DNA from: Paracoccus beibuensis | GTDB lineage: Bacteria; Pseudomonadota; Alphaproteobacteria; Rhodobacterales; Rhodobacteraceae | Assembly: GCF_026162625.1 (NCBI RefSeq) | Contig: NZ_JAOTBD010000001.1 | Span: forward strand, 62,001-126,000 | Reading direction: 5' to 3' | DNA: 64,000 nucleotides | In this document: one piece after another, positions 6,616-28,222 of the stretch | Position numbering within the stretch: the first letter of the stretch is position 1 | Layout of the letters: each line of letters opens with the position of its first letter | Made by a program: the position numbers and the translations under genes | Notes under the pieces: model-generated | Database searches by the model: none | Told to the model about the DNA's origin: nothing | The model's input: the letters and a program-made list of their open reading frames with translations, nothing else

Positions 6616-8301
6616 TCAATAGAGGAAATAGCGTTGCGCCAGCGGCAGCTCGGTCGCGGGCTCGCAGGTCAGAAGAACGCCGTCGGCGCGGACCTCGTAG
6701 GTTTCCGGGTCGACCTCGATGTCGGGCATGGCGTTGTTCAGGACCATGTCGGCCTTGCCGATGTCGCGGGTGTGTTCCACCGCGATCAGGGTCTTTTGCA
6801 GCGCCGATCCGGCCCCGGCCTCCAGCCCCGCCTGGCTGACGAAGAGGGCCGAGGCGCGGCGGTTGTGCCCCCACATGGGCCGCGAAAACATCGGCTGCAC
6901 GGGGATCGAGCCGTTCGGATCGCCCATCTGCGCCACGCTGATCTGACCGCCGACCAGCACCATCTCGGGCTTGGCGGCAAAGAAGGCGGGCGACCACAGG
7001 ACCAGGTCCGCGCGCTTGCCCGGCGCGATCGACCCGATATGCCGGCTGACCCCATGGGCGATGGCGGGGTTGATCGTGTATTTCGCGATATAGCGGCGGG
7101 CGCGCAGGTTGTCATTCTGCCCCTGCTCGCCGGGCAGGCGGCCGCGCTGGCGGCGCATCTTGTCGGCGGTCTGCCAGGTGCGGATGATCACCTCTCCGAT
7201 CCGGCCCATGGCTTGGCTGTCCGACGAGATCACGCTGAACGCACCAAGGTCGTGCAGGATGTCCTCGGCCGCGATGGTCTCGCGCCGGATGCGGGATTCG
7301 GCGAAGGCGACATCCTCGGGGACGCGGCGGTCAAGGTGGTGGCAGACCATCAGCATGTCGAGGTGTTCCTCGATCGTGTTGCCGGTATAGGGCCGCGTCG
7401 GGTTGGTCGACGACGGCAGCACGTTCGCCATGCCGACCATGCGGATGATGTCGGGGGCGTGCCCGCCGCCCGCGCCCTCGGTGTGATAGGCGTGGATGGC
7501 GCGGCCCGCGATGGCGGCCATCGTATCCTCGACAAAGCCCGATTCGTTCAGCGTGTCGGTGTGAATCATCACCTGCACGTCCATAACGTCGGCGACGGTC
7601 AGGCAGCAGTCGATGGCGGCGGGGGTGGTGCCCCAATCCTCGTGCAGCTTCAGCGCGCAGGCGCCGGCGCGGACCTGTTCCTCCAGCGGGGCCGCGACGC
7701 TGGCGTTGCCCTTGCCCGCGATGCCGATGTTGACGGGCAGGTCGGCGCAGGCCTCCAGCATGCGGGCGATGTGCCAAGGGCCGGGGGTGCAGGTCGTGGC
7801 CAGCGTGCCATGCGCGGGGCCGGTGCCGCCGCCAAGAAGCGTTGTGACCCCGGAATGCAGCGCGTGGTCCACCTGCTGCGGGCAGATATAGTGGATGTGG
7901 CAGTCGAAACCGCCGGGGGTCAGGATGCGGCCCTCTCCGGCGATGATCTCGGTTCCGGGGCCGATGATCAGGGTCACGCCCGGCTGGGTGTCGGGGTTGC
8001 CGGCCTTGCCGATCCCGGCGATGCGCCCGTCCTTCAGGCCCACATCGGCCTTGATGATGCCCTGGTGGTCGAACACCACGACGCCGGTGATCACCGTGTC
8101 CATGGCGCCGTCCGCGCGGGTGACTTGGGACTGGCCCATGCCGTCGCGCACGACCTTGCCGCCGCCGAACTTGACCTCCTCTCCCGCGATGGTCAGGTCG
8201 CGCTCGACCTCGATGAGGATCTCGGTATCGGCCAGGCGGATGCGGTCGCCGGTGGTGGGACCATAGAGCGCGGCATAATCGGCGCGGGACAGCGTCGTCA
8301 C
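6616..8301 (-). CDS. ureC: Urease alpha subunit UreC
   Basis: 561-residue catalytic subunit hydrolysing urea to ammonia and carbamate at a di-nickel site in the cytoplasm. Visible ligands and catalytic residues: HIH at 135-137 ([13 protein letters not shown]), the carbamylated Lys at about 218 in [12 protein letters not shown], His at about 247 in [16 protein letters not shown], His at about 273 in [14 protein letters not shown], and the catalytic His at about 321 in MVCHHLDR. All are intact, so the enzyme should be active. Length is close to the usual 566-572. The start overlaps the ureB stop by 4 bp. Confidence 0.98.
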
Positions 8302-24602: not shown

Positions 24603-25382
24603 ATGCGACCGCCTTCCTTGACCCAGATCAAGCCCGGACAGACGGGCACGGCAACGCATGAGGACATGCGCTGCACGGACTGTCCGATTCGCTATCGGGC
24701 AGTGTGCGCGCATTGCGAAGGCGAAGAGCTGACGAATCTGGAACAGATCAAGTTCTATCGCAGCTACGAGTCCGGCCAGGCGATCGTCTGGGAGGGCGAT
24801 CGGATGGACTTTGTCGCATCGGTCGTGACCGGGGTGGCGTCGCTGACCCAGACGCTGGAGGACGGGCGCACGCAGATGGTGGGCCTGCTGCTGCCAAGCG
24901 ATTTCCTGGGCCGCCCGGGCCGCCACGAGGCGGCCTATAACGCCACGGCGGCGACCAAGGTCGTGCTGTGCTGTTTCCGGCGCAAGCCGTTCGACCAGAT
25001 GATGCGCCAGACGCCGCACCTGGCCCATCGCCTGCTGGAAATGACCCTGGACGAGTTGGACGCGGCTCGCGAATGGATGCTGCTTCTGGGACGCAAGACA
25101 GCGCGGGAAAAGATAGCGTCCTTCATCTCCATCATCGCGCGTCGTCAGGCGGCGCTGCACAAGCGGCAGCCCGGCGGCCGCATGGTGCTGGACCTGCCGC
25201 TGACGCGAGAGGCGATGTCGGACTATCTGGGCCTGACGATCGAAACCGTCAGCCGCCAGATGACGGCGCTGAAGCGCGACGGGGTGATCGAATTGCAGGG
25301 GAAGCGCGGCGTGATCCTGCCGGACTTCGCCCGCCTGGTCGAGGAATCGGGTGACGATTCCGACGGCGGCCTGCCCGCCTGA
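24603..25382 (+). CDS. fnrL: Crp/Fnr-family oxygen-sensing regulator (FnrL/FnrP)
   Basis: Up to 259 residues. N-terminal Cys set C24, C27, C35, C38 (MRCTDCPIRYRAVCAHC) plus C123/C124 (VVLCCFRRKPF) supplies 4Fe-4S ligands as in FNR. Then the cNMP-like fold (FVASVVTGVASLTQTLEDGRTQMVGLLLPSDFLGRPGR), the dimer helix LLEMTLDELDAAREWMLLLGRKTAREKIASF and the HTH LTREAMSDYLGLTIETVSRQMTALKRDGVI, whose E..SR reads TTGA half-sites. It controls micro-oxic genes. The in-frame ATG at 24666 is a possible true start, because the FNR box lies inside the longer frame, but its ribosome site is poorly spaced. In Paracoccus the gene near cco is called fnrP. Confidence 0.93.
   Translation: MRPPSLTQIKPGQTGTATHEDMRCTDCPIRYRAVCAHCEGEELTNLEQIKFYRSYESGQAIVWEGDRMDFVASVVTGVASLTQTLEDGRTQMVGLLLPSDFLGRPGRHEAAYNATAATKVVLCCFRRKPFDQMMRQTPHLAHRLLEMTLDELDAAREWMLLLGRKTAREKIASFISIIARRQAALHKRQPGGRMVLDLPLTREAMSDYLGLTIETVSRQMTALKRDGVIELQGKRGVILPDFARLVEESGDDSDGGLPA
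24618..24631. promoter_or_regulatory. FNR-type box between hemN and fnrL
   Basis: TTGACCCAGATCAA matches the FNR consensus TTGAT-N4-ATCAA at 9 of 10 positions. It lies 36 bp before the hemN start and inside the longest fnrL open frame (codons 6-10), so it favours a downstream fnrL start. It could drive hemN, autoregulate fnrL, or both. Confidence 0.75.
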
Positions 25383-25421
25383 CCCTTTCCATCCCGCGTC
25401 ACGGCTGCTAACCGGGCGCTT

Positions 25422-25456
25422 CCCGGTCGCAGCCTACCCGGGTCACAAAAACAAGG
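25422..25456 (+). promoter_or_regulatory. Putative preQ1-I riboswitch in the queC leader
   Basis: Stem CCCGG (25422-25426) pairs with CCGGG (25438-25442) around the loop TCGCAGCCTAC, followed by the A-rich tail TCACAAAAACAAGGG. This layout and much of the sequence, including GGUCGCAG and ACAAAA(A)CAAGG, matches the preQ1-I aptamer as known from Thermoanaerobacter tengcongensis. The terminal AAGGG is also the likely Shine-Dalgarno, 8 bp before the queC ATG at 25465, so ligand binding should block translation of queC. Confidence 0.85.
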
Positions 25457-25464
25457 GTCACAGA

Positions 25465-26172
25465 ATGAAAACCACTCTCGTCTGCTCGGGCGGGCTCGAT
25501 TCCGTCTCGCTTGCCCAAGTGCTGGCAGCGGAAGGGCGGCTCTCGCGCATCGTCAGCTTCGATTACGGCCAGCGCCACCGGAAGGAGCTGGAATTCGCCG
25601 CCGCCTGCGCCGGGCGCCTGGGGGTGCCCTTCCACCTGGTCGACCTGTCGGGTCTGGGCGCGGCGCTGTCGGGGTCGGCGCTGACCGACGATGTCGCGGT
25701 GCCTGACGGCCACTATGCCGAAGACACCATGCGCGTCACGGTGGTGCCCAATCGCAACGCGATCATGCTGACGATCGCCTTCGGCATCGCCGCCGCCAAT
25801 GGAGACACGGCCGTCGCGGCGGCGGTGCATGGGGGCGATCACTTCATCTATCCCGACTGCCGGCCCGCCTTCACCGATGCCTTCGGCGCCATGCAGCGGG
25901 CGGCGCTGGACGGCTATGCCGATGTGGCACTGCACGTGCCCTTCGTGCGCGCCACCAAGGCCGATATCGTGACGGCGGGGGCCGCGGCCGGCGCGCCCTT
26001 CGCAGAGACCTGGTCCTGCTACAAGGGCGGGGATCTGCACTGCGGACGCTGCGGCACCTGCGTCGAGCGGCGCGAGGCGTTTCACCTGGCGGGCGTCGCC
26101 GACCCCACGGATTACGAGGACCGGGTTTTCTGGTGTGCCGCCGTGGCCGCCCATGTGGCAGGGGGCGCGTGA
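25465..26172 (+). CDS. queC: 7-cyano-7-deazaguanine (preQ0) synthase QueC
   Basis: 235 residues. Converts 7-carboxy-7-deazaguanine to preQ0 using ATP and ammonia in queuosine synthesis. PP-loop SGGLDSVSLAQVLAAEG at 8-24, FDYGQRHRKELEFA, VVPNRNAIMLTIA, and the zinc site ETWSCYKGGDLHCGRCGTCVERREAF near the C-terminus. The start at 25465 is fixed by the riboswitch and ribosome site just upstream; the longer frame is not supported. It overlaps queD by 1 bp and is first of queCDE. Confidence 0.96.
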   Translation: MKTTLVCSGGLDSVSLAQVLAAEGRLSRIVSFDYGQRHRKELEFAAACAGRLGVPFHLVDLSGLGAALSGSALTDDVAVPDGHYAEDTMRVTVVPNRNAIMLTIAFGIAAANGDTAVAAAVHGGDHFIYPDCRPAFTDAFGAMQRAALDGYADVALHVPFVRATKADIVTAGAAAGAPFAETWSCYKGGDLHCGRCGTCVERREAFHLAGVADPTDYEDRVFWCAAVAAHVAGGA

Positions 26173-26525
26173 TGTTTCGGATCACCAAAGAGTTCCACTT
26201 CAGCGCTTCGCACCGGCTGGACCATCTGGCGCCGGACCATCAATGCGCGCGGCTGCACGGCCATAACTATATCGTCGTGGTCGAACTGGCGGCGGCCGGC
26301 CTGAATTCCGACGGCTTCGTGCGCGATTATCACGAGCTGGCGCCGCTGAAGGACCACATCGACGGCACGTTCGACCACCGGCACCTGAACGACGTGCTGG
26401 ACGGGCCCACCACGGCCGAGAACCTGGCGCGGCATTTCTTCCAGTGGAGCCGCGCGCGCTGGCCAGAGGTCAGCGCCGTCAGGGTCAGCGAGACGCCGAA
26501 GACCTGGGCGGAGTTCCGGCCATGA
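26172..26525 (+). CDS. queD: 6-carboxy-5,6,7,8-tetrahydropterin synthase QueD
   Basis: 117 residues. Turns dihydroneopterin triphosphate into carboxytetrahydropterin, the step before QueE. Zinc His ligands: H14 (FSASHRLDH) and H29/H31 (CARLHGHNY); the catalytic Cys25 lies four residues before [11 protein letters not shown] and VSETPKTW complete the pattern. The ATG shares its first base with the queC stop (tgATG). Ends 4 bp inside queE. Confidence 0.95.
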
Positions 26526-27226
26526 GCCGGCTGCGCATCGCGGAGATCTTTGGCCCCACGATCCAGGGCGAGGGCGCGCTGATTGGCCAGCCCACGGTCT
26601 TCGTCCGCGCGGGCGGCTGCGACTATCGCTGCGCGTGGTGCGATTCGCTGCACGCTGTGGACAGCCGCTTCCGCGACAGCTGGGCCCCGATGGAGGCGCC
26701 AGAGGTCTGGGCGCGGGTGCGCGAGCTGTCGGCCGGGCGGCCGCTGACCGTGTCGATCTCGGGCGGCAACCCGGCGATTCAGGACTTCGGGCCGTTGATC
26801 GAACTGGGGCGGATCGAGGGGTACAGGTTCGCGCTGGAAACCCAGGGCTCGATCGCCCGAGACTGGTTCGTCGGGCTGGAGATGCTGGTCCTGAGCCCGA
26901 AGCCGCCGTCCAGCGGCGAGCGTGCGGACTGGGCGGCGTTTGAGGCCTGCGTCGCGGCGGGGGCGAGGCAGACGGCGCTGAAGATCGTGATCTTCGACGA
27001 CCAAGACTATGCCTGGGCGCAGGAGGTGGCGGGACGCTATCCCGACCTGCCGCTGTATCTGCAGCCCGGCAACCCGGAGGTCGATCCCGAGGTGCCGGTG
27101 GCGGCGCAGGACGTCGCGGACCGGGTCCTCTGGCTGGTAGGCAAGGTCTGCGCCGACGGCTGGTTCGCCGCACACGTCCTGCCCCAGCTGCACGTGATGC
27201 TGTGGGGCAACAAGCGCGGGGTGTGA
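26522..27226 (+). CDS. queE: 7-carboxy-7-deazaguanine synthase QueE
   Basis: 234-residue radical SAM enzyme that contracts the pterin ring. It has [32 protein letters not shown] with the CxxxCxxC cluster at 33, 37 and 40, then [12 protein letters not shown] and LSPKPPSSG. Overlaps queD by 4 bp and closes the queCDE operon; queF and tgt are not nearby. A large G-run/C-run hairpin follows. Confidence 0.95.
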
Positions 27227-28187: not shown

Positions 28188-28201
28188 TTGATCAGGATCA
28201 A
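28188..28201. promoter_or_regulatory. FNR-type box 1 between uspA and ccoN
   Basis: TTGATCAGGATCAA is a perfect match to TTGAT-N4-ATCAA. Centre about 63 bp from the uspA start, so it probably activates uspA and may help ccoN. Confidence 0.85.
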
Positions 28202-28208
28202 CCGGACC

Positions 28209-28222
28209 TTGACGCAGATCAA
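28209..28222. promoter_or_regulatory. FNR-type box 2 between uspA and ccoN
   Basis: TTGACGCAGATCAA differs from the consensus at one base and from the hemN-fnrL box at one base. It is centred 21 bp (two helical turns) from box 1 and about 117 bp before the ccoN ATG, so it is the likelier ccoN site. Confidence 0.8.

Follow-up and report, generated by a model that had tools for sequence, protein, structure and literature searches.

The leader of queC in Paracoccus beibuensis very probably contains a class I preQ1 riboswitch (preQ1-I; we put the probability at about 0.92), closest to the type II aptamer Tte of T. tengcongensis and expected to lower queC translation on predicted binding of preQ1. 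The element lies on the forward strand of the window, by which we mean the whole 64,000-nucleotide stretch of DNA that was analyzed. Positions 25422–25456 read CCCGG-UCGCAGCCUAC-CCGGG-UCACAAAAACAAGG, the next base is a G, and 8 nt separate the element from the queC ATG at 25465. A sequence-only reading had proposed a preQ1-I aptamer merged with the queC ribosome site at this place, and its letters are present exactly where it put them. An aptamer overlapping the queC Shine–Dalgarno sequence is also still the best reading of the locus, with support from comparative counts, covariation, and a further copy before queF.

The leader consists of four blocks, CCCGG (25422–25426), TCGCAGCCTAC (25427–25437), CCGGG (25438–25442), and TCACAAAAACAAGGG (25443–25457), of which the first and third are the 5′ and 3′ strands of stem P1 and pair with each other. 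Loop L1 (UCGCAG, 25427–25432), with the same letters as in Tte (PMC10639078, excerpted text), is expected to be the loop side of the pseudoknot stem P2, and the last base of loop L2 (CCUAC, 25433–25437) is the C expected to read the ligand (25437), which together with the A before it makes the type II “AC.” The A-rich loop L3 (25443–25452) would cross P1 in the predicted pseudoknot and includes a C expected to pair in P2 (UCACAAAAAC); the Shine–Dalgarno sequence AAGGG (25453–25457), whose AAGG stands 8 nt from the ATG, is the expected 3′ side of P2. The gene behind the leader, queC, encodes 7-cyano-7-deazaguanine synthase and spans 25465–26172 (TIGR00364, 165.2 bits against a cut-off of 150.3). 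It is overlapped by queD (26172–26525; TIGR03367, 88.8 bits, slightly below the cut-off of 89.25), and queD is overlapped by queE (26522–27226; TIGR03365, 349.7 bits, cut-off 206.1), all features being on the forward strand.

The element has both the specificity C that precedes the 3′ strand of P1 and an A-rich L3. Within preQ1-I, we assign it to type II because the AC step is present and UU is absent (UAC followed by CCGGG and GG followed by UC, at 25425–25442), according to the type criteria given in the excerpted text of PMC11625349. The UC step and the 11-nt loop set it apart from type III.

Conservation before queC

QueC was matched in 53 of 121 Paracoccus genomes. We left out five weak or distant matches (G256, G170, G182, G227, and G257) and read the leaders of all 48 remaining genomes with a QueC orthologue; the aptamer core stands before queC in 47 of them, the exception being G169, whose queC has 68% identity. 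Among the best 80 of 562 relatives, referred to as the named loci, the core was found in 79, the exception being a MAG (L102). In total, 129 queC leaders were read and the pattern failed in three, including the distant G256. The 126 core-bearing leaders hold 28 distinct aptamer sequences and are not independent, since the named and genus sets overlap in some genomes. The recurrence of the same core in the genus and among the named loci, together with six Rfam matches falling on the leader (see below), places the element beyond chance.

The loop started with UCGCAG in 126 of the 129 leaders, a constancy that, like that of the inner stem, is partly by construction because the search pattern fixed both. 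L2 is CCUAC in 119 of the 126 core-bearing leaders and CCCAC in seven, AAAACAAGG was found in all 28 distinct aptamer sequences, and the spacing from AAGG to the ATG varies from 7 to 10 nt across the 126. The outer P1 pair, which the pattern left free, is standard in 126/126 leaders and takes six forms (A–U 67, C–G 35, U–A 14, G–U 4, U–G 3, and G–C 3), the short stem being kept by pairing. The covariation score computed from 27 distinct queC rows exceeded those of all 500 shuffles and of every slid register. Covariation rests on this one pair, as the inner four of the five P1 pairs are invariant in the queC rows; the letters of P2 are invariant as well, so P2 carries no covariation signal. One record among the loci (L101), titled Nocardioides marinus, has a queC and leader of Rhodobacteraceae type with 76% identity and is probably mislabeled.

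A second copy before queF

We built a model, R1, from the queC-leader rows (alignment A2, without the Tte row and one short-tail row) and found with it a second aptamer in the same genome, at G000:C11:283114–283143 (L160 1501–1530) on contig 11, outside the window. This copy is a reduced form with CAGG, and the ORF behind it is QueF-II (TIGR03139, 142.9 bits, cut-off 86.9). Across the 121 Paracoccus genomes, all 74 exact 19-base cores among the matches listed precede a queuosine gene on its own strand by no more than 150 nt, 42 of them queC and 32 queF. Exact matches alone were counted here; two-mismatch matches to the core pattern were noise, with a reversed control pattern scoring alike. Of 38 further genus sites, exact and near (L257–L294), 35 stand before queF, and the near matches L289, L290, and L294 lie elsewhere.

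QueF was matched in 85 of the 121 genomes; one match (G211) is a broken fragment, and 18 stand behind queC or queE in one operon. For stand-alone queF, a hand tally gave an aptamer or variant in 49 of 66 genomes (two of the 49, G175 and G216, judged by eye) and none in 17. The aptamer stands on queF in 30 of the 31 genomes having both queC and a stand-alone queF and in 19 of the 35 in which no queC orthologue was found (Fisher P 6e-5, a value that ignores kinship, several of the queC-less genomes being incomplete). G047 and G159, the latter without a QueC match, have a leader of the queC type at some distance upstream of queF, an arrangement that loss of queCDE with retention of its leader would produce. 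QueF is rare in the Rhodobacteraceae (26 of 149 genomes), and among the queF loci of other genera of the family the core is present in 1 of 24, G047 alone, while 6 of 24 directly follow queE by eye; from these loci, the queF copy looks rare outside Paracoccus.

Three queF leaders showed individual changes. The leader L292, from a genome without a queC match (G251), has the ligand-reading C changed to T and a broken A-tract (CCCAT-CCGG-TCAAGGCAGGAG) and looks like a decayed or changed switch. In G169, whose divergent queC has no aptamer, the queF leader L338 keeps the CCAAAACAGGAGG tail and has lost the stem and loop. The leader L361 of G175 has GCGG...CCGC instead of CCGG...CCGG, by eye a two-sided change within the stem.

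Proposed mechanism and ligand

In the mechanism that we propose, preQ1, once accumulated, would slot in between the stems P1 and P2 and pair there with C25437. P2, the pseudoknot stem, would form between UCGCAG and CAAGG and capture the first Shine–Dalgarno bases, and ribosomes would then initiate less on queC and, via the overlapping genes, on queD and queE. With the second copy before queF, the outcome would be a two-gene feedback loop acting on preQ0 synthesis and on the reduction of preQ0 to preQ1, and the bacterium very probably turns down both the queC and the queF step when the product builds up. Binding of preQ1, its repressive (OFF) effect, base pairing in the pseudoknot, and a control point at translation rather than transcription are our inferences. 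Translational repression is the natural reading because the Shine–Dalgarno sequence lies inside the fold and no terminator-like site was found in 25340–25640; transcription attenuation was rejected on the latter ground.

The same fold could mainly sense preQ0, or both compounds about equally, and in this way gauge QueC’s own product. preQ0 is the product of queC, and the preference of Tte, a type II aptamer, for preQ1 over preQ0 is just 17-fold (PMC11625349, excerpted text). We consider preQ0 sensing unlikely, since 49/66 Paracoccus genomes have this core in front of a stand-alone queF and an OFF switch driven by preQ0 would there turn down QueF, the enzyme that consumes preQ0. For this reason preQ1 appears to be the likelier signal, and it has a use in the genome, given that tgt and queA are both present above their cut-offs.

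Distribution beyond Paracoccus

R1 matched 21 of 248 genomes of the family and, at E ≤ 0.1, 8 of 385 genomes of the class. In seven of the eight class genomes, from families f1, f105, f112, f136, and f155, the match stands before queC; in the eighth (G511), no queuosine gene was seen at the match. Two further R1 places in those genomes are the queF copy of P. beibuensis itself and a place in G075 where no queuosine gene was seen. QueC was matched in 142 of 372 genomes of the class. For the phylum we used the model R2, built on alignment A3, whose Tte row sits one column off in the second loop, and obtained matches in 26 of 319 genomes. Nine of them score at least 43 bits, and all nine are alphaproteobacteria with queC behind the match. 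A further 17 score no more than 27.5 bits and seem to be chance matches; no QueC or QueF was seen at the 14 that were placed, and the remaining three are L380, L388, and L391.

An Rfam scan of 20 other alphaproteobacterial queC leaders, taken from the low-scoring end of the 142 genomes, gave no preQ1 match. Two Rfam-negative queC leaders resemble the element. The first (L297, genome G533) reads CCTG-TCGTAGCAC-CAGG-TTAAAAACACG, with differences in both stems, and by eye looks like a divergent member. The second (L303, genome G503) reads GCCGG-TCGCAGAATTCCTAC-CCGGC-TTTACAGAG-AAAACAAGG, with a four-base insertion in the second loop and an extended L3, and is a probable member missed by the whole-genome searches. 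Such misses are likely, as those searches score 18–38 first-look candidates per genome. As far as these searches reach, the aptamer is a feature of one part of the alphaproteobacteria.

Stem length, L3 length, and folding

The length of L3 is coupled to the outer P1 pair. Among 51 distinct sequences from queC, queF, and other alphaproteobacteria, an L3 spacer of at least 4 goes with a formed outer pair in 30 of 31 cases and a spacer of 3 or less in 5 of 20 (P 7e-8); the figures for AAGG-type leaders alone are 30 of 31 and 3 of 9 (P 1e-4). The spacer cut was chosen post hoc, and both P values ignore kinship. The coupling fits an H-type pseudoknot and not a plain hairpin, since a longer stem needs a longer crossing strand.

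Folding energies, computed for nested folds only, gave no support. Taken by itself, the aptamer forms P1, yet its energy is no better than that of shuffled sequences (z −0.24); for the 59-nt queC leader, P1 is absent from the minimum-energy fold and three of its pairs persist in the centroid (z 0.87), and the queF leader of the same genome is similarly unremarkable (z 1.26).

With a near-invariant core and little covariation within the stem, the conserved leader could be read as a protein site, bound by a translational repressor or a DNA-binding regulator of queuosine genes, with a likeness to preQ1-I arising by convergence. This we regard as very improbable: the match to Tte is base for base and includes unpaired bases and the AC specificity step, the outer P1 pair covaries and is coupled to L3 length as in an H-type pseudoknot, and the Shine–Dalgarno overlap is held at near-fixed spacing.

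Scores against the Rfam PreQ1 model

The sequence-only reading had named the Rfam PreQ1 model (RF00522) as a check and the lack of a hit as a refutation, and the outcome was divided. At the curated cut-offs (gathering threshold 39 bits), there was no match at the queC leader, and a permissive scan of 261 bases placed PreQ1 at 25417–25460 with 17.8 bits. Taking the missing hit as a literal refutation would mislead, because the element fails the curated Rfam cut-off. The queC leader was the sole PreQ1 match reported genome-wide at E ≤ 10, with an E-value of 0.79 (3.94 Mb; 150 of 174 first-look candidates scored), and the score by itself proves nothing, as 14 of 14 control genomes also had a match at E ≤ 10 and six of 14 at E ≤ 1.

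In the Rhodobacteraceae, 0 of 149 genomes exceeded the PreQ1 cut-off, the best score being 33.4 bits, in a search with stricter filters and at most 38 candidates scored per genome; the queC site of P. beibuensis itself went unreported there. At E ≤ 1, the search gave 21 places in 18 of the 149 genomes, with the core present at three (L002, L004, and L005). When ten hand-picked loci of the 80 named ones (66 kb) were scanned with all 4227 families at E ≤ 10, the PreQ1 model, which is untrained on these sequences, gave six matches, all exactly on the queC leader, and none in the other four loci. The preQ1-I class is thus detectable in queC leaders by an independently built model, though below its curated threshold. 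The model was blind to the queF leader of the same genome and matched 0 of 20 other queF leaders, nine of which carry the core or a close variant. We read the sub-threshold score as a limit of the model’s reach and not as an exclusion; a database cut-off does not define an RNA class.

A chance hairpin beside the Shine–Dalgarno sequence, in keeping with the weak single-genome evidence (E 0.79, with controls matching too) and a folding z-score near zero, is refuted by the comparative counts, namely the core in 47/48 and 79/80 leaders and the 74/74 exact cores among the matches listed that precede queC or queF, and its probability is negligible. As for the preQ1-I riboswitch, neither the low Rfam score nor the invariant inner stem and P2 nor the plain folding energy would contradict membership in the class. 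The case is a comparative one, built from aligned sequences: the match to known letters, the outer-pair covariation and its coupling to L3 length, the near-fixed spacing to the start codon, and the association with queC and queF.

Transcription and neighboring features

The sequence-only reading had also drawn attention to a surrounding micro-oxic respiration block, a context that turned out to be incidental. Of the 48 genus loci, 30 were tested for FnrL upstream of queC and 14 had it, as did 6 of the 80 named loci, the aptamer being nearly universal there. Allowing one mismatch at most, we found no FNR-box-like site in the stretch from fnrL to queC. Control of queC by FNR under micro-oxic conditions was rejected on the lack of such a site and on the fnrL neighborhood not being conserved with the aptamer. 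The window as a whole has four such sites, at 24618, 28188, 28209, and 29485; two of these form a pair (28188–28201 and 28209–28222, with 0 and 1 mismatch) at the start of an ORF from 28228, which we take to be a cbb3 oxidase subunit.

A scan for sigma-70 consensus promoters at the queC leader found none. The position profile has weak peaks, some near –36 and –12/–13 from the core, and as a guess, transcription may start near the 5′ end of the aptamer. Elsewhere in the window, positions 7863–8152 of the forward strand match Rfam 5_ureB_sRNA (81.6 bits, cut-off 40); at a guess, urease coding sequence and not an RNA gene may underlie the match. In Yoonia sediminilitoris, an ar14 sRNA-like match (L123 2580–2708, forward strand; 57.2 bits, cut-off 58.8) stands ∼250 nt before the aptamer.

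Discussion

The preQ1-I class is known; the Paracoccus members before queC and queF appear to be new, and the reduced queF form is possibly new too. In the literature searched, the type II set of a 2014 survey of preQ1 classes being outside its scope, we found no description of the element in Rhodobacterales or Paracoccus. For a lineage in which the public PreQ1 model gives no match above its cut-off (0/149 family genomes), the finding offers a preQ1 regulon that can be tested, and it indicates that the Rfam PreQ1 cut-off can hide a whole cohort. The queC and queF forms are a natural pair of aptamers differing in stem and L3 length, which bears on the minimal RNA for preQ1 sensing, and the position before queF is informative as to whether preQ1 or preQ0 should be the controlling ligand.

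A wider interpretation, to which we give slightly less than even odds, is that an alphaproteobacterial preQ1-I cohort exists below the Rfam cut-off and in Paracoccus constitutes a two-gene feedback regulon, in which queC(DE) carries the form with a 5-bp stem and long L3 and stand-alone queF the reduced one with a 4-bp stem and short L3. On this view the reduced form would count as a subtype of its own, among the smallest of the preQ1 aptamers; it persists in Paracoccus genomes that gave no queC and would need to salvage preQ0.

The preQ1-I class is widely distributed in Bacillota, Proteobacteria, and Fusobacteria (PMC11477304, excerpted text), and other bacteria are known to regulate queCDEF with it (PMC11625349, excerpted text). 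The closest known relative is the Tte aptamer, given in the excerpted text of PMC10639078 as CUGGG-UCGCAG-UAAC-CCCAG-UUAACAAAACAAGGG. It shares with the queC element a 5-bp P1, UCGCAG, AC before the 3′ stem strand, and an A-rich tail with AAAACAAGGG, so that the likeness drawn by the sequence-only reading holds for both the loop start and the tail. The stem sequences differ and both pair; in the Paracoccus element the inner P1 pairs are nearly frozen in sequence and the second loop is one base longer (CCUAC vs. UAAC). In Tte two Shine–Dalgarno bases are buried (PMC11625349, excerpted text), and by likeness the same would be expected in Paracoccus; the Tte switch controls a putative preQ1 transporter (PMC3905878, excerpted text), whereas the Paracoccus element stands before queC.

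The preQ1-I switch of Bacillus subtilis, of type II and on the queCDEF operon, has the fold class and pathway genes in common with Paracoccus (PMC11625349 and PMC9495176, excerpted texts). It acts by transcription termination, whereas the Paracoccus aptamer shares bases with the ribosome site and the search there for a terminator-like site was negative. Type III, from Escherichia coli and other gamma-proteobacteria, is likewise proteobacterial and translational and has the AC step and an AAGG Shine–Dalgarno sequence within the fold, but it differs in having UU atop the 5′ strand of P1, a shorter pyrimidine-rich loop, and a position before yhhQ, compared with the UC, 11-nt loop, and queC/queF position in Paracoccus. 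Within Paracoccus itself, the queC and queF forms share the CCGG-UCGCAGCCCAC-CCGG core, an A-rich tail, and the Shine–Dalgarno overlap; the queF form has mostly lost the outer pair, leaving a 4-bp P1, and has an L3 spacer of 2 and CAGG, whereas most queC forms have a spacer of 5–6 and CAAGG.
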